Shown one piece after another: positions 2,673 to 59,320 of a DNA stretch of 64,000 bases. Position 1 is the first letter of the stretch; each line of letters starts with the position of its first letter. A model generated the notes under the pieces. It had not been told where the DNA came from, searched no databases, and saw only the letters and a list, made by a program, of their open reading frames with translations. The DNA is taken from the NCBI GenBank assembly GCA_024401495.1, contig JAKSKW010000004.1, positions 1 to 64,000 on the forward strand. The letters are read 5' to 3'. The position numbers and the translations under genes are program-made. This stretch comes from Paludibacteraceae bacterium (GTDB lineage Bacteria > Bacteroidota > Bacteroidia > Bacteroidales > Paludibacteraceae).

Positions 2673-2673
2673 T

Positions 2674-5025
2674 TTATTCGATAGTTTTAATATATCCGTA
2701 GCCATAGCCATAACCATAGCCGTAACCATATTTATAGCTGCTTGAATCAGTACCATTAAGCACGATACTCATCATTGGATATTTCTTTTCATCGTAGAAT
2801 TCCTCAACGACATGAAGATATGTCTTCTCCATCAAACCTGCTCTTAACACGAACAAAGTCACATCAGCATATTTAGATACGATTCCCGCATCAGCAACAA
2901 CATCCACCGGTGGACAGTCGACGAAGATATAGTCGTACTGGTTTCTCAAGTCCGCAATCAGATCAGTCAGGTATGTTTTGTGTAGCAAAAGTTCAGTCGG
3001 ATTTGGTGGTATTGTACCTACAGGCAAAACATCAAGATTATCATTGTCTTCTGATTTTACCAATATATCCTTCCAACTTTTTATCTTCCCATTAAAATAA
3101 TCGGACAAGCCATGTTTTGGAGAATCGCATATTTTTGACAGAGTTGCTCGACGCAAGTCTAAATCCAGCACAATCACTTTTTTGTCACGCAATGCAGAAC
3201 ATGAGGCCAAGTTAGCTGAGATAAAACTCTTTCCACTACCCTGATTCATGGATGTAATCATTATAACCTTCTTGTTCTCATTTCCAAGAATGAAATCCAC
3301 ATTGGTACGAAGCACACGGAATGATTCGTTTATAAGATTTCTATTGTCTTTCTGGACTGCAATATGTTTGTTAGAAGCATCCGGATCTTCAGGTATCTCT
3401 CCCGCAAAAGGAACTGTCAACACTTCCAAATCCTTTCTGCTTCGCACTTTTGTATTCATACTCTCCATGACATACAAAACTGTGGCAGGGATAGCCAAAC
3501 CAATAACGAAGGCTGCCAAAAGGATGATCGCCTTTTTTGGTGAGATTGGATTGTCTGCGCCAAGAGGTTCTGTTATTGTTTTCGACTTATATGCGTTATA
3601 AGCCTTCGACAACTCGTTCTCTTCACGTTTCTGCAACAAGAACAGATAGAGTCCTTCCATGACTTTTTGCTGTCTCTCCTCAGACAATAGATATTTAGCC
3701 TGGTTCGGATTTCTTGCCAACTTACTGATAGTGTGCGACTCCTGAGTCTTAATCTGATCAATCTGCATATTAAGAGCAGTTATCTCACTCTTTACACTCT
3801 GAAGAATAACTTTCTGCATCTCCTTCAAAGTTTCTGTCATGTCAGTAACCAATGGATTATTGCCGCTACTATTGGCAATCAATCGATTTCTCTCAAGAAG
3901 TTTCTCATTATACTTGTTGACCTGCAACTGTATGCTTCCGTTGGACAATGCCGAAGATGAAGGAAGTGGTTCCTCATAAGTTTTACTCTGTAGCATTTCA
4001 CTGATGTAGTTAAGAGTCATCAGCTGTCCGTTAAGTGAAAGCAACTGCTTTACATTGTCGGAATTCTGCTCCAAATAAATCTGAGACACTGCCTTAATAT
4101 CTGGCAACAAATTCTCTCCCTTAAAATTAGCAATGTTTTTATCAATACCCGTCAAATCCTGAAGGATCATTTCCAATCGTTCAGTGATAAACTCCGATGT
4201 CTTTGTTGCCAATTTGTTACGGTCTTGAATCCAATTCTCATTGTAATTATGAATCAATGAATTCAATATGTCTTCTGCTCTAGCTGGAGAAGGATCGTTA
4301 ATAGACAAATTCAACACCGACGAATTCTTATCTGCCAAACTGATAGTAAGATTTTTGCAATATCCGTCAGTAACAGATTTCAATTTATTATGGCTATAAC
4401 TGATCTCGACATTTTCACAGAAATAATCAGTTGACAAAACCACGACTCTACCTACTGGAGTTGATATTGTATCTCCAAAAGAAGCCGTTCTGGAACTTTC
4501 GTCTTCATCTGCATTTAATTTGAACTCTCTAAGGTTTACAGTCTTTTTATCGAAATCAGCATAAATTTTGAATGAGATATTATCGACAACATTATCCAAA
4601 TCGACCAAATCAACCTTAACTGGGGAGTTTTTATAAAGCAGGGTCTTTCCTAATCCTTTCTTTACAACGTACTTGTTTGTCAAATCCAAATCATTAACTA
4701 CCTGAGCCATCAAAGAAGGAGACTTCAATGTTAGCAATTCATTGTTGATATTGGTTGTGTTGGAAAACAAGCCCAGATCCTGGAACTCATTTGTCATGCT
4801 TATAGCAGACTTACCTTTATTGTCGTCTTCTATAAGCAATGTCGCCGTACGAGTATAAATCGGAGAAGTCGACATCAAATACAAAACGGCGACTATCATA
4901 CATAAAACAACCGATAGGACAAACCATTTCCATTTTGATAGACACAACTGAAGGAGGTCGGAAATGTTAATTCCCTCCTCCTCCTGATTGTTCGGTATAT
5001 TTCTTTTTTGTGGTTGCTGTGGCAT
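2674..5025 (-). CDS. wzc: Polysaccharide co-polymerase with BY-type tyrosine kinase domain (Wzc-like), apparently active
   Basis: A 783-residue fusion of a Wzz-type chain-length domain and a bacterial tyrosine kinase. A first membrane helix lies near residues 35-55, a coiled-coil periplasmic part with the conserved PNQAKYLLSEERQQKV stretch follows, and a second helix lies near 500-520. The kinase has an intact Walker A (QGSGKS, G596 to S600), Walker A' (VLDLDLRR) and Walker B (FVDCPP, D703). The C-terminus carries eight tyrosines (764-778) in a YKY(GY)6 array, the expected autophosphorylation cluster. Neighbours are wza upstream and the cognate phosphatase one base downstream. The glycan made with it is unknown because no glycosyltransferases adjoin. 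Confidence 0.92.
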   Translation of the reverse strand: MPQQPQKRNIPNNQEEEGINISDLLQLCLSKWKWFVLSVVLCMIVAVLYLMSTSPIYTRTATLLIEDDNKGKSAISMTNEFQDLGLFSNTTNINNELLTLKSPSLMAQVVNDLDLTNKYVVKKGLGKTLLYKNSPVKVDLVDLDNVVDNISFKIYADFDKKTVNLREFKLNADEDESSRTASFGDTISTPVGRVVVLSTDYFCENVEISYSHNKLKSVTDGYCKNLTISLADKNSSVLNLSINDPSPARAEDILNSLIHNYNENWIQDRNKLATKTSEFITERLEMILQDLTGIDKNIANFKGENLLPDIKAVSQIYLEQNSDNVKQLLSLNGQLMTLNYISEMLQSKTYEEPLPSSSALSNGSIQLQVNKYNEKLLERNRLIANSSGNNPLVTDMTETLKEMQKVILQSVKSEITALNMQIDQIKTQESHTISKLARNPNQAKYLLSEERQQKVMEGLYLFLLQKREENELSKAYNAYKSKTITEPLGADNPISPKKAIILLAAFVIGLAIPATVLYVMESMNTKVRSRKDLEVLTVPFAGEIPEDPDASNKHIAVQKDNRNLINESFRVLRTNVDFILGNENKKVIMITSMNQGSGKSFISANLASCSALRDKKVIVLDLDLRRATLSKICDSPKHGLSDYFNGKIKSWKDILVKSEDNDNLDVLPVGTIPPNPTELLLHKTYLTDLIADLRNQYDYIFVDCPPVDVVADAGIVSKYADVTLFVLRAGLMEKTYLHVVEEFYDEKKYPMMSIVLNGTDSSSYKYGYGYGYGYGYGYIKTIE
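2697..2738 (-). repeat. Imperfect 6-base tandem repeat encoding the GY tail
   Basis: Six Gly-Tyr codon pairs in a row (GGN TAY) encode residues 766-778 of the upstream kinase. Codons alternate (GGT/GGC/GGA, TAT/TAC), so the repeat is imperfect at DNA level. Confidence 0.7.
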
Positions 5026-5142: not shown

Positions 5143-5937
5143 CTAGTCTCTTATGAAAGACATCGCAAGGTTGAAGACTGTGAAGAACACGTTAACGCAG
5201 CTGAATACGATATTTGTCGCATTACCAATACGCGAATTCTTTGTCTTTGTCTTATTTGGCTCTACATAGATAACATCATTCTGCTTCAAAAAATAAGCAG
5301 GAGAAGCAAATAGGTTCTTTGATCGAATGTCTGTCTTATATGTGATACGCTGTCCGTTTTCCTCTCTTATCACATAAATACCATCTCTGATACCATAAAT
5401 AGTCAAGTCTCCAGCCATACTCAATGCCTCAAGCAATGTAATCTGGTCTTTTGTAATCATATACTTGCCTGGAGCATTACACTCTCCCAACACTGTAACA
5501 TAAAGGTTCATAAACTCAACAGTCACAACTGGGTCGTTGATAAGGTTAGCCTCCATCAAAGATGTCTTAACATGCTCGGCCACCTCACTCTTTGTCATAC
5601 CTGAAATCTTAATCTTTCCAAACACAGGGAAATCAATTTCTCCCTTGTCATCCAACGTATAACCAGAAATCTTAGACTGGCCACCGCCTCCACCTGCTGA
5701 TCCTACCTGATTACTTGATGTGGCAAGATTGAATAGAGCCGCAAGTTGTGGATCCTTACTATTGACGATGATAGAGATCTGATCTTTAGGTTGCAAACGA
5801 ATATCACGTGAGCCTACAACTGGTTCATTCTTATTCAATTGTACATCCTGGAAGTACAAGATTTTTTCCTGTGTCTTACAAGAAGAAAGCAATACAGCAC
5901 AAATGGCTATCACCAAAAGTTTTAATGTTTTTTTCAC
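5143..5937 (-). CDS. wza: Polysaccharide export outer membrane lipoprotein (Wza-like)
   Basis: A 264-residue protein with a lipoprotein signal ending in LLSSC, so it is probably anchored to the outer membrane. It has a polysaccharide export (PES) domain (RLQPKDQISIIVNSKDPQLAALF) and a SLBB-like domain (VTVLGECNAPGKYMI). A C-terminal hydrophobic stretch (VFFTVFNLAMSFI) fits the membrane-spanning helix of Wza-type channels. The start codon is GTG at 5937; no in-frame ATG gives a signal peptide. It is first in the wza-wzc-cpsB operon, 117 bases ahead of wzc. A near-consensus -7 box (TATTTTCG, 5983-5990) lies 45 bases upstream. Confidence 0.88.
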   Translation of the reverse strand: MKKTLKLLVIAICAVLLSSCKTQEKILYFQDVQLNKNEPVVGSRDIRLQPKDQISIIVNSKDPQLAALFNLATSSNQVGSAGGGGGQSKISGYTLDDKGEIDFPVFGKIKISGMTKSEVAEHVKTSLMEANLINDPVVTVEFMNLYVTVLGECNAPGKYMITKDQITLLEALSMAGDLTIYGIRDGIYVIREENGQRITYKTDIRSKNLFASPAYFLKQNDVIYVEPNKTKTKNSRIGNATNIVFSCVNVFFTVFNLAMSFIRD

Positions 5938-44512: not shown

Positions 44513-46042
44513 ATGGGCGACCACGCGGCTGAGAACAAAAGAATTGCAAAAAACACATTGGCATTATATGCACGCACCATCATTGTGATGCTTGTATCTC
44601 TTTATGTATCTCGCGTATTGCTTGACAAATTAGGAGTTGACGACTATGGTGTCTACAATGTTGTAGGCAGTATTGTTGTGTTGTTTTCATTTTTGAACAA
44701 CGCGCTAACATCAGCATCACAACGTTTTCTGACAGTTGCACTTGGAGAAGGAGACAAAGGCAAAATGATCAGAGTGTTCAACACATCAATCTCCATTCAG
44801 TTAATATTAGTAGCAATAGCAATATTACTTCTTGAGATAGTCGGAACATGGTTTTTGAACAACCGACTCAACATCCCAGACGGAAGATTAGAGGCAGCAA
44901 ACTATGCCTTCCAATTCTCAATTCTAACTTTCTGTTTTCATTTTATCCGTGTACCATATGCGGCAAGTGTCGTGGCATACGAAAAATTGGATTTTTTTGC
45001 ATACTCCAGTATTGCAGATGCGGTCCTTAAGCTGATTATAGCTTATATGGTTGGTGTATCTGGATACGACAAACTTATAACTTATGCATTCCTTCTTGCA
45101 TTTGAAAGTTTTGCCCTATTGGTAATATACAAAATATTCTGCACAAAAACATTCGACACTTGTGCGTACAAAAAAATTTTAGACAGATCCATTTTCCAAG
45201 AAATGTTCATGTTTTCTGGATGGACATTGTTTGGTGGGTTCAGCAATGTTGCCACACAGAATGGATTCCTTTTCATGCTAAACATGTTCTGCGGGGTAGC
45301 GGCGAATGCAGCAATGGGCATAGCCAATCAAGTATTGACAGCATTAGCCACATTCGTAGGAAGTTTCCAAACATCCTTTCAACCCCAAATTGTAAAATCT
45401 TTTGCACAAGGAGAATTTGAACGCCTACACAGTTTGATCAATACAACATCAAAATTCTCATTTGCTTTGATGTTTTTACCAGCCAGTTTATTGATAGTGA
45501 ACATAGAATTTATCCTAAGCATTTGGCTCGGCACAGTCCCTGAAAACACTGCGCAATTTTGTCAGGTCCTCATAATTTGTTCAATAATAGATGCCGTTAC
45601 TGGTCCCTTTTACTGTGCAGTCACAGCAACAGGCAAGATTGCTAAATATCAGATATTTATAAGTATCAGTTTCTTGCTTGATCTATTCATTGCATTTACA
45701 TTGTTCAAAATGGGAGTCGAACCATTTTTGATCTTGACATCCAGAATCATGACAAGAGGCATTTTGAACGGCATCATAGGATTGCATTTCATAAAAAATC
45801 TAATAGGTCACGACATTGGTGTATACTTACGAAATACAGCAATGCCTATATCAATAGTTTTGTTGATTATGGCACCTATTATGTATAACCTATATATCAA
45901 TTTCGACGGGCTCTCTCTATTAGCAATCTCTATTCCTGTTGTATGCTTGGCATTCATAATTTCAAGCTATTATTTCCTTTTCTCACAATCAGAAAAGGAA
46001 TATGTATTATCAATCATTAATAAGTTCAAAAAACGTGGATAG
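44513..46042 (+). CDS. Wzx-like polysaccharide flippase
   Basis: A 509-residue inner membrane protein with 12-14 helices. The N-terminus IAKNTLALYARTIIVMLVSL followed by SRVLLDKLGVDDYGVYNVVGS is typical of capsule and O-antigen flippases of Bacteroidales, which flip undecaprenyl-linked repeat units to the periplasm. A GAAAGGA sequence 6 bases upstream could help ribosome binding, which is unusual here. It opens the 44.5-59.3 kb plus-strand locus. Its last 41 bases overlap the next gene. Confidence 0.85.
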   Translation: MGDHAAENKRIAKNTLALYARTIIVMLVSLYVSRVLLDKLGVDDYGVYNVVGSIVVLFSFLNNALTSASQRFLTVALGEGDKGKMIRVFNTSISIQLILVAIAILLLEIVGTWFLNNRLNIPDGRLEAANYAFQFSILTFCFHFIRVPYAASVVAYEKLDFFAYSSIADAVLKLIIAYMVGVSGYDKLITYAFLLAFESFALLVIYKIFCTKTFDTCAYKKILDRSIFQEMFMFSGWTLFGGFSNVATQNGFLFMLNMFCGVAANAAMGIANQVLTALATFVGSFQTSFQPQIVKSFAQGEFERLHSLINTTSKFSFALMFLPASLLIVNIEFILSIWLGTVPENTAQFCQVLIICSIIDAVTGPFYCAVTATGKIAKYQIFISISFLLDLFIAFTLFKMGVEPFLILTSRIMTRGILNGIIGLHFIKNLIGHDIGVYLRNTAMPISIVLLIMAPIMYNLYINFDGLSLLAISIPVVCLAFIISSYYFLFSQSEKEYVLSIINKFKKRG

Positions 46043-47027
46043 ATATAATTTTGTCTTCTTTTTGGAAGATTATTTCGATTTCAATAAAATAATATATGCC
46101 GAAGTCAGCAAGAGAGATAATGTAAAGTCTGTTATAGGATTTTCTCCTAAAAACAAATTCAAGAAGTTTCTCTTCCAACTTCAGCATTCCAAGACTACCA
46201 ATAAGCATTTTCACATACCGTTCAAATCAATTTGGTTCAGCACATATTTCAAGAATGATTTTGCAAACCCAAACAAGCCTATTGTGTTTATATTTAACGC
46301 GAGATGGCTTGAATACGACTATATGCGCAGATATGCAGTATGGTTGAAAAAGAAATACCCAAATTGTAAATTGGTAGCCAATTATTGGGACATTGTTGCG
46401 ACTTGGAAAGACGAAGCAAAGCCAGACGCCATCAGAGGGATAGTTGATATGTTAGTAACATATGACAAAAGAGACGCAGAGAAATATAACATGCGCTTTT
46501 ATCCAACAGTCTACGCAGAAGCAAACATTTCAAGACCTAACGACAAACCAGAAACAGATGTGTTTTTCGTGGGTGCGGCAAAAAAACGTATGCAGAAGAT
46601 TCTTGACGCATACGACCGTTTAGAGGCGGCAGGATTAAACTGTTTCTTCTATGTAATGAACGCGTCCGGACCATATAGACAAGAGCGTAAAGGCATTCTT
46701 TATGTCGACAACGACAAAATGCTACCTTATGAAGAATGCATTCAATATATACAGCATACTAAGTGTATTTTGGAAATCATGCAAGACGGAGCGATTGGAG
46801 AAACATTACGTGTTTGGGAGGCAATAACATACGGTAAAATGTTGCTTACAAATAATGTTTCATTCATGACAGAGTCGAAATTCTACGATCCAAATTACGT
46901 TTGCATGATTTCAAAAGATGGTGATTTTGACACACAAAGGATTAAGGATTACGTGTGCAAACCAAATTCTCTAAAAGAAAAAATTTTGCCAGAGAATTTC
47001 CTTAGATATATAGCAGATAATTTATGA
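46002..47027 (+). CDS. Putative glycosyltransferase of the polysaccharide locus
   Basis: A 341-residue cytoplasmic protein. The C-terminal half (FFVGAAKKRMQKILDAYDRL, then GAIGETLRVWEAITYGKMLLT) looks like the nucleotide-sugar half of a GT-B glycosyltransferase, and the N-terminal half has VFIFNARWLEYDYMRRYAVW. No family number can be given with confidence. ATG 46002 lies within the flippase gene (41-base overlap) and has an AAAAGGAA sequence just ahead; a shorter GTG start is possible. Its end overlaps the Wzy-like gene by 4 bases (ATGA). Confidence 0.6.
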   Translation: MYYQSLISSKNVDRYNFVFFLEDYFDFNKIIYAEVSKRDNVKSVIGFSPKNKFKKFLFQLQHSKTTNKHFHIPFKSIWFSTYFKNDFANPNKPIVFIFNARWLEYDYMRRYAVWLKKKYPNCKLVANYWDIVATWKDEAKPDAIRGIVDMLVTYDKRDAEKYNMRFYPTVYAEANISRPNDKPETDVFFVGAAKKRMQKILDAYDRLEAAGLNCFFYVMNASGPYRQERKGILYVDNDKMLPYEECIQYIQHTKCILEIMQDGAIGETLRVWEAITYGKMLLTNNVSFMTESKFYDPNYVCMISKDGDFDTQRIKDYVCKPNSLKEKILPENFLRYIADNL

Positions 47028-48313
47028 ATTATATACCGGCAATATATTTCACAACACTGACTGTAATTCTCTTTATAAAAAGAGGATTAGATGCCAGTTC
47101 GTATTTGTCGCTAATATATGCGGCAACTTCCATTTTTGCCATTGGCATCGACATAATGGGGTTAAATCCTAGTCTTGTCGAATGCGCTTCATTGCTACCG
47201 ACAATCCTATATTGTCTGCTTCTTACACTGTTCATACTCCCTGCAATTCTAATTGACATCAATTCATTTGATGGAATATTGATGAGCAGCCTTAAATTTG
47301 TACGATTATTTAATTTTATTTTCTTCTTTTCATTTGTATGCTTCATTATTGCATACTATAAAGACGTACAATTCGTTTTATCATATGGAGATTTCCATGA
47401 ACTGAAAAAGCTGGTATATGAAGGAGACGCCTATGAACTTACAAAATATCCTGGACCAGTTGAGCTGATACTTTATCCAGTACGAATCATAGTCAGTTCA
47501 AGCCCAACCATGCTTTTTATATTCTTTTTTAACATCACATTTTTAAAAGAAAAATGGTGGGTAAATCTTATGGCCATTCTTGGATCAACCACATCCATCA
47601 TTAATGGAATTTCACAGGTAGACCGTTCTTCCACATTCTTCTGGGTTCTAATCTTGGGACTTGCGGTATCTACTTTTTGGAATCAAATGTCTGCTAAAAT
47701 TAAAAGTGTTGCCATAAGCTTCAGTACCATACTATTTATCGCTGTAGCTTCTTATGCGCTATCAGTAACCAAAGACCGTTTCGAAGACAGAGACGGTGGT
47801 TCACAAGGAGGAGTTGTCTTGTACTTAGGACAACCTTATTACCATTTTTGTGAAATATGGGATTACTATCCTGCACCTGATGGAATAACGACAAAGTCAC
47901 TATTTCCCGCACTACATAAATTTGTCTTAAAAGACTTCAATGGAACTGTTTCTTATCAACAGGAGATGGGATTAAAAAGTAATATGGACTTAGGTGTGTT
48001 CTATACTCATTTAGGGTCGTTCATACTTTCCGCTGGAAATTTTGGACCTTTTATGATAACCACCTTATACTTACTAATCTTTTACTTTTTTTTCAAAGAG
48101 GACGATAAATACAAGACCAGCAACAATGCGAACTATTTGGATTTCAAAAAGGCAATGATGATGTTCATCTTACTCTCTATTCCAGCAGTCGGTTGCATCT
48201 GTTACTATTACGAGAATTATTACTTGGAAGCATACACATATATACAAATAGCCGCACTATATACGCTCACTGATGAAGAACCTCAAATCCTTCATATACG
48301 AAAACATAATTAG
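47024..48313 (+). CDS. Wzy-like polysaccharide polymerase
   Basis: A 429-residue inner membrane protein with about 11-12 helices and a larger hydrophilic loop near 255-330, the usual form of O-antigen/capsule polymerases. Sequence conservation in this group is low, so the call rests on topology and position between a flippase and glycosyltransferases. The start codon overlaps the preceding stop (ATGA), which implies coupled translation. It would join flipped repeat units in the periplasm. Confidence 0.7.
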   Translation: MNYIPAIYFTTLTVILFIKRGLDASSYLSLIYAATSIFAIGIDIMGLNPSLVECASLLPTILYCLLLTLFILPAILIDINSFDGILMSSLKFVRLFNFIFFFSFVCFIIAYYKDVQFVLSYGDFHELKKLVYEGDAYELTKYPGPVELILYPVRIIVSSSPTMLFIFFFNITFLKEKWWVNLMAILGSTTSIINGISQVDRSSTFFWVLILGLAVSTFWNQMSAKIKSVAISFSTILFIAVASYALSVTKDRFEDRDGGSQGGVVLYLGQPYYHFCEIWDYYPAPDGITTKSLFPALHKFVLKDFNGTVSYQQEMGLKSNMDLGVFYTHLGSFILSAGNFGPFMITTLYLLIFYFFFKEDDKYKTSNNANYLDFKKAMMMFILLSIPAVGCICYYYENYYLEAYTYIQIAALYTLTDEEPQILHIRKHN

Positions 48314-48351: not shown

Positions 48352-49431
48352 ATGAAGAAGATACTACTAATCATAGAACATTTAGGTGCAGGAGGTGCAG
48401 AGCGTCAAATCTGTGGCCTTGCAGCAATGCTAACGAATGCTGGCTATCCTTGCAGATTGGTCACTTATATAAAGGATCAGTTCTACGAACCTTTCCTACA
48501 CCAGAACAATGTCGATTACGAGTTTTTACCAGAATTAGCCAATAAAAAAACTCGTGTTTGGCGTGCTGCCAAATATGTTCGCAATTACAATCCTGACATT
48601 GTAATTTCATACTTGCCTTCGGTCAACAAGGCTATGTGCCTTGCAAAACTGTTATTCAAGGCAAAATTGGTGGTATCAGAACGCAACAACAATACCTGCG
48701 TCACTAATGGAGACAAAATCCAGTTTAATCTCTACCGATTAGCGGATGCTATCGTGCCTAACAGCAACAGCCAAGGTAAATTTATCGACACAAATTTTCC
48801 ATTCCTAAGCAAGAAAGTATTCCCTATCATCAATTTTGTAGATGTTAATCGCTTTACTCCAGCTGCTGAACATGTGGGAAACGACACTTTACGTATAATT
48901 ACTGTAGCGCGCTACACAGAGCAAAAAAATATGTTGGTATATTTGGATGCTGTGCGTAAGATCAAAGACTTGGGGTTGAATGTCAGATTCGACTGGTATG
49001 GCGACAAGAACGACAATCCAAGTTACTTGGCCGAAGTGGAAAGAAAATATCAAGAGTTGGAGCTATCAGACATTCTAACACTTCATGAAGCAAACAGAAA
49101 AATTGAGGAAGAATACCGTAAATCCGACGTATTCTGCCTTCCTAGCCTTTATGAAGGATATCCCAATGTCGTTGCAGAAGCAATGTCATGCGAATTGCCT
49201 GTCATATGCAGCAACAACTATGAAAATCCATATATCGTGGAAGAAGGAGTCAATGGCTACCTGTTTGATCCTGAGAATGTGGACGACATAGTAAACGCTG
49301 TCAAAAAGATAGCTTCTCTTTCAAAAAAAGAACGCCACGAAATGGGAATCAGGAACCGCCAGATATGTTTGAAAAGAAATACAGAGGAAGAGTTCTTGAG
49401 CTCGTATATCAAACTGATCGAATCATTATAA
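48352..49431 (+). CDS. Glycosyltransferase family 4
   Basis: A 359-residue GT-B retaining glycosyltransferase. It shows EHLGAGGAERQI at the N-terminus and PSLYEGYPNVVAEAMSCELP in the C-terminal half, giving the E-x7-E catalytic/binding motif. The sugar added is unknown. It follows the polymerase gene by 38 bases. A 129-base inverted-repeat element separates it from the epimerase gene. Confidence 0.88.
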   Translation: MKKILLIIEHLGAGGAERQICGLAAMLTNAGYPCRLVTYIKDQFYEPFLHQNNVDYEFLPELANKKTRVWRAAKYVRNYNPDIVISYLPSVNKAMCLAKLLFKAKLVVSERNNNTCVTNGDKIQFNLYRLADAIVPNSNSQGKFIDTNFPFLSKKVFPIINFVDVNRFTPAAEHVGNDTLRIITVARYTEQKNMLVYLDAVRKIKDLGLNVRFDWYGDKNDNPSYLAEVERKYQELELSDILTLHEANRKIEEEYRKSDVFCLPSLYEGYPNVVAEAMSCELPVICSNNYENPYIVEEGVNGYLFDPENVDDIVNAVKKIASLSKKERHEMGIRNRQICLKRNTEEEFLSSYIKLIESL

Positions 49432-49565: not shown

Positions 49566-49596
49566 TAAAAAATAAATGTGTAAACTAAATAAAAAT

Positions 49597-50661
49597 ATGG
49601 TTGAGTATAATATTTCATTAGAAGGTAAGACGGTGCTTGTAACAGGTGCCGCTGGTTTCATCGGATCAAATCTTGTGAAAAGACTTTTTAAGGACGTAAA
49701 AAATATAAGAGTCGTAGGTCTTGATTCAATCACAGACTACTACGATGTGAACATAAAACATGAGAGATTGAAAGAGATCGAATCTCTAGGTTGTAATTGG
49801 AAATTTGTAAAGGCCAATTTAGCAGACAAAGCGGCTATCGACCAACTATTCTCAGAGGAGAAGTTCGCTGTGGTAGTCAATCTTGCTGCGCAAGCTGGTG
49901 TGCGCTACTCAATCACAAACCCAGGATCTTACATCGAATCCAACCTTATCGGATTCTATAATATTCTTGAGGCATGTCGCCACAACGAAGTTGAGCACTT
50001 GGTATACGCGTCATCATCTTCTGTATACGGATCAAATAAGAAGGTACCGTATTCTACAGACGACAAGGTGGACAATCCAGTATCTCTATATGCAGCCACA
50101 AAGAAGAGCAACGAGCTAATGGCACACTCTTACTCAAAGCTTTATAATATTCCGTCGACAGGATTGAGATTCTTCACAGTATACGGACCTGCAGGACGTC
50201 CAGACATGGCTTACTTTGGTTTTACAAACAAACTTCGTGAAGGTAAGACTATCCAAATCTTCAACTACGGCAACTGCAAGCGTGACTTCACATACGTTGA
50301 TGATATCGTAGAAGGAGTGGTTCGCGTCATGCAGCATGCTCCAGAGAAGCAGAATGGTGAGGATGGACTACCAATTCCTCCATACAAGGTGTACAATATC
50401 GGAAACAACTCACCAGAGAATCTTTTGGATTTCGTGACGATTCTTCAAGAAGAGTTGATTGCGGCAAAGGTACTTCCTGCAGACTATGATTTCGAATCGC
50501 ACAAAGAGCTTGTGCCAATGCAGGCAGGTGACGTGCCTGTGACATACGCCGACACCACCCCACTTGAGCAAGATTTCGGGTTCAAGCCAAGCACAAGTTT
50601 GAGAGATGGATTAAGAGCGTTTGCCCAGTGGTATGCAAAATATTATGGAACAGCCCAATAA
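49597..50661 (+). CDS. NAD-dependent sugar epimerase, UDP-glucuronate 4-epimerase type
   Basis: A 354-residue extended SDR enzyme. The Rossmann motif is TGAAGFIGSNLV and the active site has SSSSVYG with Y-A-A-T-K (LYAATKKSNELMAHSY). The segment GLDSITDYYDVNIKHERL is typical of enzymes that turn UDP-glucuronate into UDP-galacturonate. It would feed the neighbouring glycosyltransferases. ATG 49597 opens the conserved sequence; an ATG at 49576 would add seven residues and is only 10 bases from the inverted-repeat element. Confidence 0.85.
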   Translation: MVEYNISLEGKTVLVTGAAGFIGSNLVKRLFKDVKNIRVVGLDSITDYYDVNIKHERLKEIESLGCNWKFVKANLADKAAIDQLFSEEKFAVVVNLAAQAGVRYSITNPGSYIESNLIGFYNILEACRHNEVEHLVYASSSSVYGSNKKVPYSTDDKVDNPVSLYAATKKSNELMAHSYSKLYNIPSTGLRFFTVYGPAGRPDMAYFGFTNKLREGKTIQIFNYGNCKRDFTYVDDIVEGVVRVMQHAPEKQNGEDGLPIPPYKVYNIGNNSPENLLDFVTILQEELIAAKVLPADYDFESHKELVPMQAGDVPVTYADTTPLEQDFGFKPSTSLRDGLRAFAQWYAKYYGTAQ

Positions 50662-50747: not shown

Positions 50748-51638
50748 ATGATAAGAAAAATCTTAGCAAAGATTCTGTATCTCTTTTATCATAATGAGAT
50801 AAAAAAGCGTTCAAAAAGGCAAGACGCAATATTGTCAATATACGGACATGACCAACAGAAAGAGCCATTTGAAAAACTAGTGGCTTGGCTTGTTGATCTA
50901 GGCTATACTTTTATCACTCCTGAAAAGGTGTATTCCATTGTCACTGGTGCCGAACCTTTGGATAAGAAATACGTTTGGATGAGTTTCGACGACGGTTGGA
51001 AGAGTGGGTACGACAATGTTTTGCCAGTTCTAAAAAAATACCAGATTCCTGCAACATTCTTTATCGCATCAAAAGGCATAGAGGATGGCTACTATTGGTA
51101 TTCAAGAGCCTTCCAAAATAGAGATTCGAATCTATACTGCAAGATCGACGAACTTTGGCAGATGCCTAATGCAGAGAGAACTAAAATAATAGATCAACTT
51201 CCTGCGTACCGAGGGCCAAGAATCACTATGAATGAGTCCGAACTTCAGGCGATGAAAGAGAGTGGATTCGCAAATTTCGGAAATCACACTCACGACCACG
51301 TTATGAGCGACAAATGCGCGAAGGGCGAGTTGTCGGAAGAAATTAACAAGTGTTCGCAGAGAATGAAAGAGATAAACGGAGAAGATTGTTCATTCATCTA
51401 CTCGTATCCTAATGGCAACTTGGATGAGACTTCTGTTGGAATCATCAAAGAGAAAGGATTCAAGCTTGCAGCCACAGTGAAGATCGGATGGATCAAGCCA
51501 GGAGAGAACCCTTACGACTTGCATCGTAACGAGTTCAACAACGGTTGTCTTGAAGAAAATCTCCTCCAAATTTACGGATTATGGACTCCATTCTTTGATC
51601 GTATAAAAAAGATTTTAAACATAAAAAGACATAAATAA
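50748..51638 (+). CDS. Polysaccharide deacetylase family protein (NodB type)
   Basis: A 296-residue CE4-type protein. The metal/catalytic motif 1 reads SFDDGWKSGYDNVLP and motif 2 reads NHTHDH; a later YPNGN is the usual RxxxY-type block in modified form. It has no clear signal peptide, only a short hydrophobic N-terminus (ILAKILYLFY) with a basic RKILAK start, so it may be membrane-associated. It probably removes acetyl groups from N-acetylated sugars of the glycan made here. An inverted-repeat element follows the gene. Confidence 0.82.
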   Translation: MIRKILAKILYLFYHNEIKKRSKRQDAILSIYGHDQQKEPFEKLVAWLVDLGYTFITPEKVYSIVTGAEPLDKKYVWMSFDDGWKSGYDNVLPVLKKYQIPATFFIASKGIEDGYYWYSRAFQNRDSNLYCKIDELWQMPNAERTKIIDQLPAYRGPRITMNESELQAMKESGFANFGNHTHDHVMSDKCAKGELSEEINKCSQRMKEINGEDCSFIYSYPNGNLDETSVGIIKEKGFKLAATVKIGWIKPGENPYDLHRNEFNNGCLEENLLQIYGLWTPFFDRIKKILNIKRHK

Positions 51639-51781: not shown

Positions 51782-52822
51782 ATGAAATATAAAGTTTCAA
51801 TAATAGGATATCTAGCAAAGAAGGAACCTCTTTTTGACGGCCAGACAGTCAAGACCAGACAGCTGGCAAGTGTACTTCACAACCACTTATCCGATGAAGA
51901 AATTGGAGAACTGGACATGCAAGAGATGCGAAAATCCCCCGTCTCTTTCTTTTGGAATTTCTTCAAACTATGCAGAAATAGCGACAACGTGATAATACTT
52001 CCCGCACAGGGAGCGCTACTGATTTTCCCATTATTGTGTGTGTTGTACCGTGGGAAAAACACCAAACTCATCTACAATGTAATTGGAGGTTGGGTTGCAA
52101 ATCACATTGAAAAATATGCATATTTGAAGCCAATATTGAAAATGTTTGATCAAATTTGGGTTGAGACTACAGTAATGAAGAAGTCCCTAGAAGAAAAAGG
52201 GTTCAACAAAATTACAATCGTGCCTAACTTCAAGGATATAACAATTTTGAATGAGGAAGATTTGAGCAAGACCGTTTCCAAACCAATACGTCTTTGTATT
52301 TTTTCTCGAATTATGGAGATGAAAGGAATTGACGACGCCGTTAATTCTATAATGGAAGTAGATCCTGAGGCAAACGACTTCTCTTTGGATATATATGGTC
52401 AAATAGACTCTACATATGTAGAGCATTTTACTGAGCTTCAAAAAAACTTTCCAAATAACATTCGTTACTGTGGATGCGTAGATGCGACGAAGAGTACAGA
52501 AACGCTATGCGGATATGACGCCCTTCTATTTCCTACAAAATTCCCAACAGAAGGTTTGCCAGGAACTTTAATTGACGCATATTCCGCAGGATTGCCAGTA
52601 ATTTCAGCGAAGTGGAACAGTTTCGATGATTTTATAGAGGAAGGCAAAACCGGTATAGGATATACTCAGTGCAATTACAAAGAATTAGTTGATACATTAC
52701 GTAAAATCAAAGAAGATCCTTCTATCATAACAGACATGAAGGTGAATTGTCTAAAAAAAGCAAAAGAATATTCCGCAGAAACTGTAAGTAAACAAATATA
52801 TTCTTTGCTTAATTTACAATAG
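51782..52822 (+). CDS. Glycosyltransferase family 4
   Basis: A 346-residue GT-B enzyme. The C-terminal motif is PTEGLPGTLIDAYSAGLPV, so the second acidic residue of the E-x7-E motif is aspartate (E-x7-D), a tolerated variation. A conserved GGWVANHIEKY segment lies in the acceptor half. It is separated from the deacetylase gene by inverted-repeat copy D and from the CotH gene by 159 bases with a promoter box. The sugar is unknown. Confidence 0.82.
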   Translation: MKYKVSIIGYLAKKEPLFDGQTVKTRQLASVLHNHLSDEEIGELDMQEMRKSPVSFFWNFFKLCRNSDNVIILPAQGALLIFPLLCVLYRGKNTKLIYNVIGGWVANHIEKYAYLKPILKMFDQIWVETTVMKKSLEEKGFNKITIVPNFKDITILNEEDLSKTVSKPIRLCIFSRIMEMKGIDDAVNSIMEVDPEANDFSLDIYGQIDSTYVEHFTELQKNFPNNIRYCGCVDATKSTETLCGYDALLFPTKFPTEGLPGTLIDAYSAGLPVISAKWNSFDDFIEEGKTGIGYTQCNYKELVDTLRKIKEDPSIITDMKVNCLKKAKEYSAETVSKQIYSLLNLQ

Positions 52823-52946: not shown

Positions 52947-52981
52947 CATGAATTAAGCCGCTATAACGTATCACAATTATA

Positions 52982-55900
52982 ATGAGAAGTAGCATATTAT
53001 TAAATGTCATTTTAGCAATCTCATGTTTTTCGAGTGCAAACGCTGAAGTTCGCATCACGGAAATCATGACGAACAATGTGTCTACTATCATAAGTGAAAA
53101 ATACAATTATGATGGCTATGTTGAGTTTTACAATGATGGAGGCAATCTTGATTTGAAAGGCTGGACCGTCACTAACACTAAGGAAGGCAAGACGAACTGG
53201 AGCGTAAAGTTGGATTCAACACACGTCTTACCAAACGGCTATTCTATCTTATTTTTTGGCAAAAGTGAAACAAGCAGCAAAACCGCATCAAGATTCCAAT
53301 ATAACTACATTGGAAGAGTCGGGCAAAAATTGACTACAGATGAAGGTTCGATCTCCTTTGAAAAAGATGGCCAAAAAATTAAGTTAGACTACCCTGCACA
53401 GTACCCTCACATATCGTATTGCAAAGATGGCTACATGATTCCATCCCCAGCAAAAGAAAACAACCGATTAGTCACAGACATAGCTAATCGTGTTGGTCCG
53501 GTGTCCTTTAAATCAGGCAAACCAGGAATTTATCAGAATGGATTGAATGTAGAGCTCAAGTGTGAGACAGAGGGAGCCAAAATATATTATACCAAAAATG
53601 GAGACATTCCTACTCCAGACAAAGGCACTCAATATAATGGTCCAATTTGGATCGACAAGTCGACATCCCTAAGAGCCAGAGCGTATAAAGACGGAATGCT
53701 TTTCAGTGAGGTTTTGACAGGAAGTTATTTTCTGCCAGACAAATATCACAATCAATGCAAGAATTATGATAGCAAACCTCTTCCAATAGTGTCTATCACA
53801 GCCAACAATGATGATATTTTTGGTGACATGAAAGGCATTTATGTAGTTGGTAATAACGGTATTCAAGGATGCGAGCAGGTTGCCAACTACAATCAAGATT
53901 GGGTTCGCTCTGCCAATTTTGAATATTACGTCAACGGAGAACTTTTAGACAACCAAGAAGTAGAAATCGCTGTATATGGTGGTTGTACAAGATATTACGT
54001 TGGAAAAAGTTTGAAAATCAAAGCAAACAAACGTTCAGGAAAGAACAAAATGCAATACAACGCATTCTTCGCTGACCGTTCATACAAGAAATACAAGAGC
54101 CTTGCTTTGCGTAATGGAGGAAACGGTTATGCATATGTACAGCCTCGTTGGAGAGACATGTTCATACAGAGTCTTGCCGACGGGATGAACCTCGACAAAC
54201 AAGCCGGTCAACCCGTATCTTTCTACCTTAATGGAGAATATTATGGCATGATGATTCTTACAGAAAGGACGGATGAAGATTACGTCTACCACAACTATGG
54301 TCTTGACGAAGACGAAATCGATTTGATTAAAGGAACCGGAGACTACGTTTGCGAAATCGGCACTATCGACGCATACAAACAAATGATCAACTACGTCAGC
54401 AATAAATACGCAGATGAGGATTTTTACGACGTACTCAACACACATATGGACATTGATGAGTTTATAAACTATCAAATCCTTGAGCAATATGTAGGCAACA
54501 AAGACTGGATAACAAACAACATAAAGTTGTGGAGAAAACACGATGGCGGCAGATTCCGTTGGATTGCTTATGATTTAGATTTTGGATTGTCTCCTAAATC
54601 TACGTCGTTGGATATCAACATGCTTGACTTCGCTACAAAGCCAGTCAAAACAAGTTTTACGCCTGCATTAATATTGATGCAATCGTGTATGAAAAATGAA
54701 GATTTCCGTTGGAGATTTTTAGACCAATACATTGATATACTTGAAAATCAATTCACTGACGAAAGAATAAATTCAAATATCGACTCTCTTTTGGATTTAA
54801 CAGACCACGAAATGTGCTCAACTATCAAGCATAGTGATCTTTTGGATTGTCCAGGAAGCGTCGACGCATATCACAATGACATTGAGACAATGCGATCTTT
54901 TGCAAAAGAAAGAAAATCTTACGTCATCAATCAGTTGAAGCAAGAATATGGATTAGGCAATGATTATGTCAGCGTCAAAATCAGAGCGGTATTCCCAAAC
55001 AATGAAAATCCTGACTTTAAGTTTCTTCTGAACAAAAGAGAATTTAATGGATCTAAATATAATACCTCTCGTTATTCTAATGAAAGAATAAAGATTGAGC
55101 CTGAAGTTCCTTATGGTTACAAATTGGTTAGATGGGAGCTAAACAACGAATTAGTCAGAAACGACAACGGCAATAAATACCTTGAAGAACAATTTACCAC
55201 AACTGCGGAATCGGGAGAGGTTAAAATATCAATGTATTTTGATTACGATCCAGATTGCGTACTTCCAAAAGATCTTCACCTAAATGAGATCTGTGCGTCA
55301 AACCAATCGACTTTGGATGAGAACGGAGAGACTTCCGACTGGATTGAGGTGTATAATGGTGGCGACACCGACGTCGACCTTGCCGGAATGACAATAGAGA
55401 ACAAAAGCAAGAATGTGAAATACACATTCCCTAAGGGACATACTTCGACAATCGTGCCTGCCCATGGATATAAGCTATTGTGGGCGGATAAAAATACAGA
55501 TCTCGGACCGCTTCATTTAGATTTTAAGTTGACAGCAACATTGTCTGATACGATTATCCTTAGTAGAAACTATCGTAGTAACGACGTCGAATTAAGCAGA
55601 ATCACTTATAATCCACATAATCCAGATGAATCTTTCGGAAGAAATTCAGATGGAGCGTCTACAATAGTATTATTTGCAAAATGTACAGACGACAATGGGA
55701 ATGATTTAATCACATCCACTCCGCTGTCAAAGAATGGAAGCGTCAAATGTCCTAACACTGATATAGACGAAACATTTGCCAATAATCACAAAACTCTTGT
55801 GTTTGCTGAAGGCAAGAACATCTACGTTCAAAATGCCAAAGATGCTAACATCCGAGTCTATACGATATTAGGCAACGTAATTGCCGACAAAAAAGCAGAT

Positions 55901-55987
55901 TCAAATATGTTTAACATAACAATGCCAGTTTCTGGAATATACATAGTTAAACTAAATTCTGAATGCTGGAAAGTAGTAGTAGAATAA
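52982..55987 (+). CDS. Secreted CotH-kinase family protein with lamin-tail domains
   Basis: A 1001-residue exported protein. The signal peptide ends near NAEV. Domains in order: lamin-tail domain (about 22-150; DGYVEFYNDGG, DLKGWTV), a chitobiase C-terminal-like module (about 175-245; AKIYYTKNGDIPT), the CotH kinase-like domain (about 270-660; YLNGEYYGMMILTER, RWIAYDLDFGL near 529), a second lamin-tail domain (about 763-890; NEICASN, DWIEVYNGGD) and a T9SS-like tail (about 925-1001; RVYTILGNVI, SGIYIVKL). CotH proteins of spore coats are atypical protein kinases. Substrate unknown. It lies 32 bases before the wzc-like gene, so both are probably on one transcript. Confidence 0.85.
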   Translation: MRSSILLNVILAISCFSSANAEVRITEIMTNNVSTIISEKYNYDGYVEFYNDGGNLDLKGWTVTNTKEGKTNWSVKLDSTHVLPNGYSILFFGKSETSSKTASRFQYNYIGRVGQKLTTDEGSISFEKDGQKIKLDYPAQYPHISYCKDGYMIPSPAKENNRLVTDIANRVGPVSFKSGKPGIYQNGLNVELKCETEGAKIYYTKNGDIPTPDKGTQYNGPIWIDKSTSLRARAYKDGMLFSEVLTGSYFLPDKYHNQCKNYDSKPLPIVSITANNDDIFGDMKGIYVVGNNGIQGCEQVANYNQDWVRSANFEYYVNGELLDNQEVEIAVYGGCTRYYVGKSLKIKANKRSGKNKMQYNAFFADRSYKKYKSLALRNGGNGYAYVQPRWRDMFIQSLADGMNLDKQAGQPVSFYLNGEYYGMMILTERTDEDYVYHNYGLDEDEIDLIKGTGDYVCEIGTIDAYKQMINYVSNKYADEDFYDVLNTHMDIDEFINYQILEQYVGNKDWITNNIKLWRKHDGGRFRWIAYDLDFGLSPKSTSLDINMLDFATKPVKTSFTPALILMQSCMKNEDFRWRFLDQYIDILENQFTDERINSNIDSLLDLTDHEMCSTIKHSDLLDCPGSVDAYHNDIETMRSFAKERKSYVINQLKQEYGLGNDYVSVKIRAVFPNNENPDFKFLLNKREFNGSKYNTSRYSNERIKIEPEVPYGYKLVRWELNNELVRNDNGNKYLEEQFTTTAESGEVKISMYFDYDPDCVLPKDLHLNEICASNQSTLDENGETSDWIEVYNGGDTDVDLAGMTIENKSKNVKYTFPKGHTSTIVPAHGYKLLWADKNTDLGPLHLDFKLTATLSDTIILSRNYRSNDVELSRITYNPHNPDESFGRNSDGASTIVLFAKCTDDNGNDLITSTPLSKNGSVKCPNTDIDETFANNHKTLVFAEGKNIYVQNAKDANIRVYTILGNVIADKKADSNMFNITMPVSGIYIVKLNSECWKVVVE

Positions 55988-56019
55988 CATTATAAACAAA
56001 ACCAAATAACATATCAACG

Positions 56020-58371
56020 ATGGCATCCTCATCTAAGAACAAGACCGACATCCTGAAAAAATTTGCTTTGCAATGCATAAAGAAGTGGCCAATATTTGCA
56101 ATTTCGCTCTTTTTAAGCATTTGTTTTGCTGTATATTATATCTATACAACACAGCCACAGTACACTCGAGAGACTCAGCTTTTAATCAAAGAAGAGTCGA
56201 AAAACAACAAAGTGTCAGTATCCGACTTGACTGAGGACTTTGGTACATTTTCGGGCAACACAAACGTCAACAATGAGCTTTCAAGAATCCAAAGCCCAAC
56301 ACTGATAGGAAATGTAGTTAAAAAGCTACATCTTGACATTAATTACCAGAAGGCTTCAACACTTCGCAAAAGAGTCATATACGGTGTTGAGAATCCGATA
56401 AATATCGAGATTTTAGGAATAGACGAAAATGATTTCTGTGATTTTGACATCACTCTCGACTCAACATCAATGATTGCCTACGCAAAAAAGAGCATAAAGG
56501 AAGAGGAAGCAAACGACACTACAAAGACAGACAAGCCAAACGACATCAATAAGCCAAAATTCAAAATTACAAATCTTAAATTTGGAGATACTGAGGTTGA
56601 AGGCATATGGGAAGGAAAGTTAGAGACTTCAATTATCTTGTATAAAAAACTAAGAGTGCTTGTAACATATAACAGCGAATATAAGAGCTATAGTAAAGAC
56701 CGTTCTGAGCATCCATTCCCAGAGAATATTCACATAACAAAATATGGCTTAGTTAAGAGTGTAGAATTCTTCAAGCAGAAGCTACAGGTTAGCCTTATCG
56801 ACAAGAAGTCAAGTATTCTTAACTTGAGTTTCAGTGATGCTGATGCCAAGAGAGCAGAGAATGTATTGATTGCCCTAATCGAAGCTTACAACGACAACTT
56901 GCTTGAAGGAAAGAACAAGATCGCACTTAGTACGAGCCAATTTATCAACGACCGTTTGTCGTTGATTGAACGTGAACTTGGAAATGTAGATGAAAACATC
57001 TCAACTTATAAGAGTCGAAATCTGACACCAGATGTAGACGAAGTGGCAAAGCTACACTTGGATAAGGCGAGTCAAGCACAGGATAAAGTGTCCGAGCTAG
57101 ATGCACAGTTGGCAATGTTAGAGTACATCAGAGATTTCATCGCTAACAATCACGACAAGCAGTTCTTGCCTGCCGTAACAAACATCACAAACAATGTGAT
57201 TGAGAAGAGTATCGAAGAGTATAACGCACTACTTTTGAAGCGTAACGATCTATTGTCTAATAGTAGTATCAAGAACCCTATGGTTGTCAGCTATGACAAG
57301 AATTTGGGAGACATGGAAAAATCAATCCTTGTCAACATTGACAGCCAGATCGATGCCATTGACAACCAGATTCTACACTTAAGAAAAACAGAGGCAAAGA
57401 GTAAGGCTAAAATTGCAAGTAGCCCTACGCAAACCAAATATTTGCTTGGTGTTGAGCGTCAACAAAAGGTAAAGGAGACATTGTATCTATTCTTGCTTCA
57501 GAAGCGTGAGGAAAATGAGTTGAGCCAAGCATATAGTGCCTACAACAACCAAATCATTACTCAACCCAACGGTAAACTTGAGGCTACAAGTCCTATCAAG
57601 AAAAATATTCTGATAGTGGCAATATTGCTTGGTCTACTAATTCCTGCAGCATTTGTTTGGGTATGGGAGTCTGTCAAAGGTAGAATAAACAACATGGATG
57701 ATTTAGCAGAACTTCCTGTCAACCTTCTTGGAGAATTGCCATACAGCAGCAACAAAATTGTAGTTGGAGCAGAAAAAAAGGATAAAGAAAACTCAGCTTT
57801 CAGAAATTTGAGAACAAATCTGGAAACTATAAAGTCAGACGAGGAGATCAAGTCGATAATGTTAACTGATTTAAATTCAAACAGTGGCAAAGAATATGTC
57901 GCTGCCAATTTAGCTAAAGTTATTGCTTTGAAACAAAAGAGAGTAGCTATAATAAACTTTGATAAAAGCGACGTTACTATTGATACTCTTACAGAAGGCA
58001 AGACTGGTGTTTACGATTTTCTTTCTGATAAAAATCCGTCATGGCAAAACTATGTTCATCAAAGCAAATCAGATGAATATCTATTCGTTATGCCTACAGG
58101 TACAGTACCTTCAAACCCTTCTGACTATCTAGAAGAAAACAAATTACAGACACTTGTTTCTTTCCTAAAAGCAGGTTTTGATATGGTTGTAATCAATTGT
58201 CCTTCAGCAGCAGACGAATCATCGACAATGTTGATCGGAAAATTTGTGGAACAGAATATCTTTGTGTTGAATACAGAAACATCAACCACAAAAACACTTT
58301 CTATTCTAAACAATTTGGCTATTAATGAAAAATTCAAAAACATCTCCGTTATTTTAAATAACAAAGGATAA
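56020..58371 (+). CDS. Wzc-like polysaccharide co-polymerase with a degenerate (probably inactive) tyrosine kinase domain
   Basis: A 783-residue paralogue of the protein at 2674-5025, equal in length. The Wzz part is intact: a membrane helix near 25-45, PTQTKYLLGVERQQKVKETL, LFLLQKREENELSQAY and a second helix near 525-550. The kinase part is degenerate: Walker A reads NSNSGKE (N619 to E625, no S/T after GK), Walker A' has N646 in place of the first aspartate (IINFD), and Walker B has N726 (VVINCPS). The C-terminus stops at NNKG without any tyrosine cluster. It probably controls chain length without kinase activity. It follows the CotH-like gene by 32 bases. Confidence 0.88.
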   Translation: MASSSKNKTDILKKFALQCIKKWPIFAISLFLSICFAVYYIYTTQPQYTRETQLLIKEESKNNKVSVSDLTEDFGTFSGNTNVNNELSRIQSPTLIGNVVKKLHLDINYQKASTLRKRVIYGVENPINIEILGIDENDFCDFDITLDSTSMIAYAKKSIKEEEANDTTKTDKPNDINKPKFKITNLKFGDTEVEGIWEGKLETSIILYKKLRVLVTYNSEYKSYSKDRSEHPFPENIHITKYGLVKSVEFFKQKLQVSLIDKKSSILNLSFSDADAKRAENVLIALIEAYNDNLLEGKNKIALSTSQFINDRLSLIERELGNVDENISTYKSRNLTPDVDEVAKLHLDKASQAQDKVSELDAQLAMLEYIRDFIANNHDKQFLPAVTNITNNVIEKSIEEYNALLLKRNDLLSNSSIKNPMVVSYDKNLGDMEKSILVNIDSQIDAIDNQILHLRKTEAKSKAKIASSPTQTKYLLGVERQQKVKETLYLFLLQKREENELSQAYSAYNNQIITQPNGKLEATSPIKKNILIVAILLGLLIPAAFVWVWESVKGRINNMDDLAELPVNLLGELPYSSNKIVVGAEKKDKENSAFRNLRTNLETIKSDEEIKSIMLTDLNSNSGKEYVAANLAKVIALKQKRVAIINFDKSDVTIDTLTEGKTGVYDFLSDKNPSWQNYVHQSKSDEYLFVMPTGTVPSNPSDYLEENKLQTLVSFLKAGFDMVVINCPSAADESSTMLIGKFVEQNIFVLNTETSTTKTLSILNNLAINEKFKNISVILNNKG

Positions 58372-58483: not shown

Positions 58484-59320
58484 ATGAATAATAAAATTAG
58501 TGGATGGATATATTATAACCACGCAGTAATGCCAACAACAGCCCCACACGAGGAGCCAAATATAAATCCTATCAAAGATGGCAGTATTTGGACCTTATCT
58601 AAAAATGGAAAGAAACCTTTATTTGCCCGCTTTACATCAAATTTTGATTGCGGAGTTGATACAGGATATTGGTATGTAGTTAAGAATCCTCCATTTGTAT
58701 TTGAGGATTTAGATAAAAAATATCAGAAAAACGTATTAAGAGCATTAGCTCGTTGTGACGTCAGACGTATAGATGCAGTGGCAGAATTCGAAAGCATATA
58801 TGAAGTGTATGAGGCGGCAGTCAACAACTATCAGAATATAGATAACAAAACAAGCAAGGAAAGATTCCATAGAGGAGTCCAAATAGACGGGTTGGAATAT
58901 TGGGGAGCATACGACAAACAAACTGGCAAATTAGCAGGATGGATGTCTTGCCAAAACAATGGAGACTGGACAGAAACTATATCAGCTAAATATCATCCTG
59001 AACTACAATCATTAAGGCCTAGTGATGCTATTCATTATGCAATTCTGAATCACTATCTAAACGATCTTGGACAGAGATACATATCTTCTGGCACCAGAAA
59101 TTTGAACCACAAAACTAACGTACAGGACTACAAGATTAAGAACTGGCACTTCAGAAAAGCATTTTGCAAACTGCATCTAGTTTATAGAAAAGATATTAAT
59201 ATTATTATTAAGCTACTATATCCATTTAGAAATCTGTTAATGAAGTTTGACAACATCACAGCTATCCACCAATTAAATAGTGTTTTATTAATGGAGAAGA
59301 TTAACAGGGACAGCAAATAA
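58484..59320 (+). CDS. GNAT-like protein of the polysaccharide locus
   Basis: A 278-residue soluble protein. The central KKYQKNVLRALARCDVRRI and the C-terminal TNVQDYKIKNWHFRKAFCKLHLVYR blocks resemble GNAT/FemAB-type acyltransferases found in Bacteroidota polysaccharide loci, though the match is from memory. The acetyl-CoA loop is not clearly seen. It may acylate a sugar or aminosugar precursor. It is last in the plus-strand run and converges with the GT2 gene. A hairpin (59344-59364) lies in the 81-base gap between them. Confidence 0.55.
   Translation: MNNKISGWIYYNHAVMPTTAPHEEPNINPIKDGSIWTLSKNGKKPLFARFTSNFDCGVDTGYWYVVKNPPFVFEDLDKKYQKNVLRALARCDVRRIDAVAEFESIYEVYEAAVNNYQNIDNKTSKERFHRGVQIDGLEYWGAYDKQTGKLAGWMSCQNNGDWTETISAKYHPELQSLRPSDAIHYAILNHYLNDLGQRYISSGTRNLNHKTNVQDYKIKNWHFRKAFCKLHLVYRKDINIIIKLLYPFRNLLMKFDNITAIHQLNSVLLMEKINRDSK

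Follow-up and report, generated by a model that had tools for sequence, protein, structure and literature searches.

A Wzc-like chain-length protein with a pseudokinase domain in a polysaccharide locus of a Paludibacteraceae bacterium, and its clade in Bacteroidales

Background

Escherichia coli Wzc is a PCP-2a BY-kinase that works with the partners Wza and Wzb. Its octamer is held by the tail of each subunit in the active site of the neighbour (PMC8285477), and the EX2RX2R motif makes up the other half of the BY-kinase ring interface (PMC3795738). The paper on EcpK of Myxococcus xanthus credits Cuthbertson et al. with finding PCP-2 variants that carry a BY pseudokinase in the same chain, and names four, including S. 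meliloti SMc01795 and V. vulnificus VV1_2305 (PMC12004946). The same paper describes EcpK and HfsB of Caulobacter as PCP-2-linked, stand-alone proteins whose BY-kinase fold lacks both the catalytic residues and a Tyr tail; EcpK is reported there to be without any Walker motif, and the idea that BY pseudokinases serve as scaffolds is that of its authors (PMC12004946). S. aureus CapB1 is a stand-alone, inactive paralogue of an active BY-kinase, with active-site residues kept and ADP-Mg bound (PMC3795738). WzzP of Porphyromonas gingivalis (560 aa) is a Bacteroidales chain-length protein without a Tyr-rich region, encoded apart from the wza-wzc-wzb genes, and its long cytoplasmic part reportedly resembles WzzP-like proteins only (PMC3684754).

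In the present study, we analysed a Wzc-like protein, hereafter pWzc, encoded in a stretch of 64,000 nucleotides (the window) from a Paludibacteraceae bacterium whose gut habitat may be presumed from its kinship with Candidatus Scybalocola fimicaballi (Paludibacteraceae; L001). pWzc shares domain layout and kinase fold with E. coli Wzc, which, unlike pWzc, has active residues, a Tyr tail and a kinase ring. As in SMc01795 and VV1_2305, PCP part and BY-kinase fold lie in one chain; those proteins were named from Proteobacteria, unlike the clade of pWzc, which is from Bacteroidales and has, on a comparison by description only, features of its own (a P-loop Lys in 45 of 46 proteins and a sister group altered at Walker B only). 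It resembles EcpK and HfsB in having the fold without catalytic residues and Tyr tail, and differs in being fused and, from EcpK, in keeping SGK and the second A' Asp. With CapB1 it presumably shares the status of inactive paralogue, and it is likened by description to WzzP. Fused BY-pseudokinase PCPs are therefore already published, and the clade reported here belongs to that kind, in Bacteroidales; a search by title and start of abstract, with subscription journals mostly outside its reach, found no publication describing such a clade in this order.

Architecture of pWzc and its intact paralogue

The window encodes pWzc and, some 50 kb away on the other strand, an intact paralogue with its own neighbours:

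56020..58371, + strand: pWzc, full-length PCP-2a with a pseudokinase domain, 783 aa (ORF, BLASTP, profile matches, fold matches to Wzc and CapAB)
56020..57714, + strand: Wzz/GNVR part, residues 1-565, with two predicted membrane helices (Pfam Wzz 28.5 bits, GNVR 31 bits)
57715..58368, + strand: BY-kinase-like domain, residues 566-783, tail-less, the chain ending with the last core strand (model residue 783 aligns with Wzc residue 699)
2674..5025, - strand: intact paralogue (P0002) with GSGKS, DLD, Walker B Asp and Tyr tail (sequence, profile matches)
5143..5937, - strand: polysaccharide export (OPX/Wza-like) protein adjoining the intact paralogue (PF02563, 63.5 bits)
1959..2756, - strand: CpsB/CapC-family protein (tyrosine phosphatase family) adjoining the intact paralogue (PF19567, 119.1 bits)

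The reading frame of pWzc contains no internal stop over its 783 codons and Pfam matched Wzz and GNVR, as expected from an earlier note on this DNA, which had described both frame and Wzz part as intact. Wzz domain, GNVR part, two membrane helices and a fused BY-kinase fold are those of a Wzc-type PCP-2a. No AAA/ParA domain was detected in pWzc by Pfam at E 0.001, and its kinase part scored 64.4 bits against NCBIfam TIGR01007 (polysaccharide biosynthesis tyrosine autokinase), below the cut-off of 108.05, vs 148.7 bits for the intact paralogue, which matched AAA_31, CbiA and ParA in Pfam. In the AlphaFold2 model (mean pLDDT 77.2; pTM 0.45, with the placing of the domains relative to each other unreliable and nothing to be read on oligomers), residues 553-783 superposed on the kinase domains of Wzc, CapAB, Etk and BceF at 2.2-2.3 A over 220-229 residues. 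The BY-kinase fold is thus predicted to be retained, and the modelled chain stops just short of the Tyr-tail position, since its last residue matches Wzc 699.

The two proteins of the window are collinear and identical at 264 of 774 positions (34%, BLASTP). The earlier note had given them the same length and layout; the layout stands, and the equal length of 783 aa is a coincidence, because the alignment contains 56 gap positions. The motifs of the paralogue, which the note had called intact, were confirmed, with its strand corrected to minus. The order OPX - intact Wzc - CpsB/CapC was kept in all seven related genomes, in which this Wzc was 83-90% identical with intact motifs. Each of them contained exactly one CpsB_CapC match, adjoining the intact Wzc, and two Poly_export matches, one adjoining the intact Wzc and the other elsewhere (823-840 aa; 247 aa at a contig end in G126). 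Six of the seven (L046, L048, L050, L052, L054, L056) carried a third Wzc of 802-803 aa, motifs intact, 51-52% identical to the intact paralogue and adjoining an epimerase-like protein of 637-642 aa. No OPX neighbour of this third Wzc was found in the available stretch of the six genomes, so the absence of an OPX gene is not specific to the pseudokinase.

Motif state of pWzc and of its clade

Five positions or motifs of the kinase-like domain were followed in an alignment of 46 clade proteins spanning the kinase motifs, window protein included (23 after dereplication at 90% identity, many being near-copies):

57793..57795, + strand: EX2RX2R glutamate position, Ser592, with R595 and R598 retained (Glu in 0/46 clade proteins, 108/108 other aligned homologues)
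57880..57894, + strand: Walker A, NSGKE (621-625), Lys624 retained (sequence and clade alignment)
57955..57957, + strand: first Walker A' Asp replaced by Asn646 (Asn in 44/46)
57961..57963, + strand: second Walker A' Asp648, retained (Asp in 46/46)
58195..58197, + strand: Walker B Asp replaced by Asn726 (Asn in 46/46)

The motifs of pWzc thus read N621-S-G-K-E625, N646-F-D648 and N726-C-P, and its last 40 residues contain no Tyr, i.e. the C-terminal Tyr cluster is missing. The four changes listed in the earlier note (NSGKE for GSGKS, N646, N726 and the missing tyrosine tail) were all found at the residues it gave. Wzc chains from the PDB aligned the motifs in place, ruling out functional motifs at shifted positions. 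Compared with an active BY-kinase, pWzc has the Walker A Lys with Glu instead of Ser/Thr, NFD instead of DxD, Asn instead of the Walker B Asp, and a ring motif with both Arg intact and the Glu replaced. The claim of loss at all four sites holds for the first A' Asp, Walker B and the tail; it was overstated for Walker A, where Ser622, Gly623 and Lys624 (and, in A', Asp648) are kept and only G621 and S625 differ, and it omitted a fifth loss, that of the EX2RX2R Glu (S592). By sequence and predicted structure, pWzc matches a BY pseudokinase fused to PCP-2: a single chain combines a PCP part with a BY-kinase fold that lacks both the catalytic residues and the Tyr tail.

The same substitutions, which the note had proposed to look for in relatives, were found there. 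As the Walker B position is Asn throughout the clade, those of pWzc are not a chance set. The first A' position is Asp in the two remaining proteins, and the Tyr tail is lost in 46/46 (at most two Tyr among the last 40 residues). Eight of the 108 other homologues, all with the EX2RX2R Glu, have a Walker B Asn. Ser622 and Gly623 are each present in 46/46, and position 624 is Lys in 45 and Arg in one. Position 625 is variable (S 21, G 17, D 6, E 1, A 1; n = 46), with E625 confined to the window protein; the Walker A Ser/Thr, a metal ligand, is missing in 25/46.

Dereplicated sets of 23 clade proteins and 51 canonical proteins, the latter chosen by their Walker B Asp so that this position is invariant by construction, were compared at the 49 kinase-part positions at least 95% invariant in the canonical set; 16 of these stood at 0% in the clade and three more below 10%. 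The P-loop, D648, R595/R598 and many structural Pro, Gly and Asn were unchanged, and the clade also had invariant kinase-part positions of its own. Pocket positions, picked from known motifs and including the two Asn, had a mean pairwise identity of 0.964 vs 0.606 for the whole kinase domain, a value reached in 0 of 20000 random draws. The Wzz part was more conserved within the clade than the kinase part (0.765 vs 0.606).

Extent of the clade and order of the losses

Among the best 120 of 4317 matches in 5.8 billion proteins, the clade comprised 51 proteins (P0001, P0003-P0052) before identity fell to 41%. Full-length relatives were 59-80% identical to pWzc, and two proteins are labelled Paludibacteraceae bacterium at NCBI. 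At least seven of 300 family genomes carried a member, and an order-wide search (393 genomes, E 1e-150) yielded no carrier beyond one genome already in the set. Reading frames were open in all genomic copies, six of full length and one a fragment at a contig end; five of the 51 database proteins were short, four of them with frameshift-like ends as judged by eye.

In a sister group (P0053, P0054, P0056, P0058, P0061; L012-L014), Walker A, A' and EX2RX2R are all intact; Walker B carries Asn, and the tail is a stub containing 2-4 Tyr. In L012, L013 and L014 (the same places as L042, L043 and L044), the short tail is of QYVYG type and an OPX gene lies directly upstream of each Wzc homologue. For the phylogeny, 160 sequences longer than 740 aa were reduced to 89 at 93% identity, to 71 by omitting database proteins numbered above P0075, and to 42 chosen by hand. 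The Wzz-part tree, with kinase columns excluded, joined clade and sister group with support 100/100 (careful tree), the program flagging long branches. When either group was left out, the other was placed next to P0062 (support 86/87 for the clade, 34/7 for the sister group). One alternative separating the two groups was rejected by an AU test (p 2.07e-5) that used the same model and groups defined only after inspection of the tree. The Walker B Asn requires one change and the A' position two. Because the sister group is altered only at Walker B and in a tail cut down to a stub, the losses look stepwise. The Walker B Asp probably went first, followed by tail, ring Glu and Ser/Thr; the A' change would have come last or run in parallel.

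Selection on the kinase-like part

Substitution rates were compared in six pairs among the four closest genomes (G111, G086, G069, G049). In the clade, dN was 0.127-0.166 for the kinase part vs 0.067-0.095 for the Wzz part; for the intact copies of these genomes the corresponding values were 0.014-0.036 and 0.030-0.059, and in five of six pairs their kinase part was the slower one. The kinase/Wzz ratio was about 2 in the clade vs about 0.4 to 1.4 in the intact copy. Between the window and the four genomes, clade dN was 0.228-0.260 (kinase) and 0.088-0.111 (Wzz), and that of the intact copy 0.104-0.118 and 0.086-0.093, i.e. the intact kinase was slightly faster too. Omega of the kinase part in the six least distant pairs was 0.072-0.101 in five for the clade (one undefined) and 0.010-0.036 for the intact copies; these values are rough, as dS was saturated (at least 0.87 in the six closest pairs and at least 0.61 in every pair) and often undefined. 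The dN contrast between clade and intact copy is independent of dS.

The kinase part of the clade is relaxed yet still constrained. The earlier note had set relaxed selection with frequent frameshifts against retention: relaxation relative to the intact copy is clear, and the genomic copies are open; five of 51 database proteins are short, four with frameshift-like ends, so that decay is not absent. A pseudogene reading was rejected because the genomic copies are open, with the reservation that four proteins in the database seem, to the eye, to be frameshifted. Selected retention as a pseudokinase, as the note had suggested, is supported by losses that are clade-wide down to 59% identity, by open genomic copies and by a constrained kinase part.

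The polysaccharide locus around pWzc

pWzc ends a run of genes spanning 44513-58371 and is followed by one further gene:

44513..46042, + strand: MatE-family protein, presumably a Wzx-like flippase (PF01554, 43.5 bits)
46002..47027, + strand: WaaS/CpsH-family glycosyltransferase (NF053598, 132.6 bits, cut-off 60)
47024..48313, + strand: putative Wzy-like repeat-unit polymerase, weak match (TIGR04370, 28.2 bits, below the curated cut-off of 40)
48352..49431, + strand: GT4-type glycosyltransferase (profile match)
49576..50661, + strand: NAD-dependent sugar epimerase/dehydratase (profile match)
50748..51638, + strand: polysaccharide deacetylase (profile match)
51782..52822, + strand: GT4-type glycosyltransferase (profile match; orthologue upstream of CotH in five related loci, L036-L040)
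52982..55987, + strand: CotH kinase-fold / LTD / T9SS type A sorting domain protein, 32 bp upstream of pWzc (T9SS domain 25.8 bits, cut-off 23)
58484..59320, + strand: 278-aa protein with no family match above cut-off (orthologue after pWzc in 4/7 related genomes)

No OPX or CpsB homologue was found near the pWzc orthologues in the available stretches of 6/6 genomes, nor among the 18 window proteins scanned from 36932 to 64000. A low-molecular-weight phosphatase motif was not found in the loci with one strict pattern, a weak test.

The CotH gene lies directly upstream of pWzc in six other genomes where this is visible, at a spacing of 8-44 bp, window included; the protein had no match among PDB sequences. 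A survey for near-full-length matches at 57% identity or more, with at most two candidates scored per genome, gave at least 31 genomes with CotH: six pseudokinase genomes and 25 without a clade member found. In 18 of those 25 that were examined, no Wzc or Wza homologue was found near CotH, several stretches being short or cut by contig ends. An obligate CotH-pseudokinase pair was thus rejected as a general rule; the pairing is strict from the pseudokinase side only. Because CotH stands in these 18 genomes with no Wzc/Wza homologue nearby, the pairing may be owed to the site at which the locus grew, not to the two proteins acting together.

The locus looks mosaic in sequence, as though genes had been swapped singly. 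A TMEM260-like protein (window 61670-64000) is 94.5% identical to that of L001:7996-11385, where the nearby pseudokinase is only 63% identical, and the epimerase at 49576 is 95% identical to that of G086. Just before the locus, an aromatic amino-acid lyase gene (41095-42618) is 99% identical, over the available part, to one about 4 kb from a CotH gene in G118.

Discussion

We consider it probable that pWzc is a phosphorylation-independent PCP-2a co-polymerase, the first of two roles proposed in the earlier note. Across the clade, both Asp needed for transfer (that of Walker B and the first of A', the latter kept by two members), the Tyr-tail acceptor and the ring contacts (EX2RX2R Glu and tail) are lost. 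With tail, ring Glu and two catalytic Asp gone, phosphorylation cycling presumably cannot run in the known way, and the octamer-monomer cycling that it drives in Wzc would be dispensed with. The Wzz and transmembrane part would self-assemble, ring formation resting on it as in PCP-1 proteins, and would set the chain length of the polymer from the 44513-58371 locus. The cytoplasmic domain may be a folded foot, acting as scaffold or occupancy sensor; nucleotide binding remains conceivable because SGK and D648 are retained, and the foot may hold nucleotide without turnover. The intact Wzc (2674-5025) would work in a different, conserved system, together with the export protein and phosphatase encoded beside it. 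A phosphorylation-free chain-length protein fits best, given the changes in both halves of the ring interface and a neighbourhood in which neither a tyrosine phosphatase nor an export gene was found.

Several observations weigh against this explanation. The lack of an OPX neighbour in the available stretch is shared by the third, intact Wzc of six of the seven genomes. The raised kinase-part dN, about twice that of the Wzz part (about 0.4 to 1.4 times in the intact copy), could reflect slow decay, the domain being a remnant under weak constraint on its way to loss while only the Wzz part matters; the five shortened database proteins, four with frameshift-like ends, point the same way. We nevertheless hold decay to be unlikely, as omega is about 0.07-0.10 in the least distant pairs (dS saturated), genomic copies are open, pocket residues lie far above the domain mean (0.964 vs 0.606), and the clade has new invariants of its own on a soundly predicted fold. 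Conservation of S622-G623 and D648 in every clade protein and of K624 in all except one could likewise indicate residual nucleotide chemistry. An enzyme still active with its unusual Asn, phosphorylating another target or hydrolysing ATP, would agree with the first A' Asp kept in two members and with the Walker A, A' and tail stub of the sister group, but the Walker B Asp is missing from the whole clade and the Walker A Ser/Thr from 25 of 46, which makes such an enzyme very improbable.

The second role proposed in the note, a regulatory partner in mixed rings that damps or tunes phosphorylation by intact Wzc, e.g. by offering a pocket to the tail of the active kinase, found little support. An intact Wzc is present in all seven clade-carrying genomes, pWzc retains ring and pocket features (R595, R598 and the P-loop), and an inactive paralogue beside an active one has been discussed for CapB1 and PtkB (PMC3795738). 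Yet co-occurrence says little when 291 of 300 family genomes match the query somehow, motif state aside; the two proteins are only 34% identical, tail and EX2RX2R Glu, one from each half of the ring interface, are both lost, and for EcpK the authors themselves argued against partner kinases (PMC12004946). Mixed assembly thus seems distinctly unlikely. A phosphorylation-independent co-polymerase leaves room for a more speculative version, which we put forward tentatively and rate as unlikely: a kinase turned nucleotide sensor, binding ATP/ADP via SGK and D648 without turnover, both catalytic Asp being Asn, with polymer length following the occupancy of the pocket in place of phosphorylation, and the Walker-B-only sister group as a preserved halfway stage.

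Conclusions

EcpK and HfsB pose, for split systems, the question of how a chain-length protein works without a phosphorylation cycle. The clade described here raises it for fused Bacteroidales proteins whose host cell also encodes an intact paralogue. Together with the Walker-B-only sister group, it forms a series in which one may ask how the dismantling of the switch proceeded step by step and whether binding of nucleotide is still in use.
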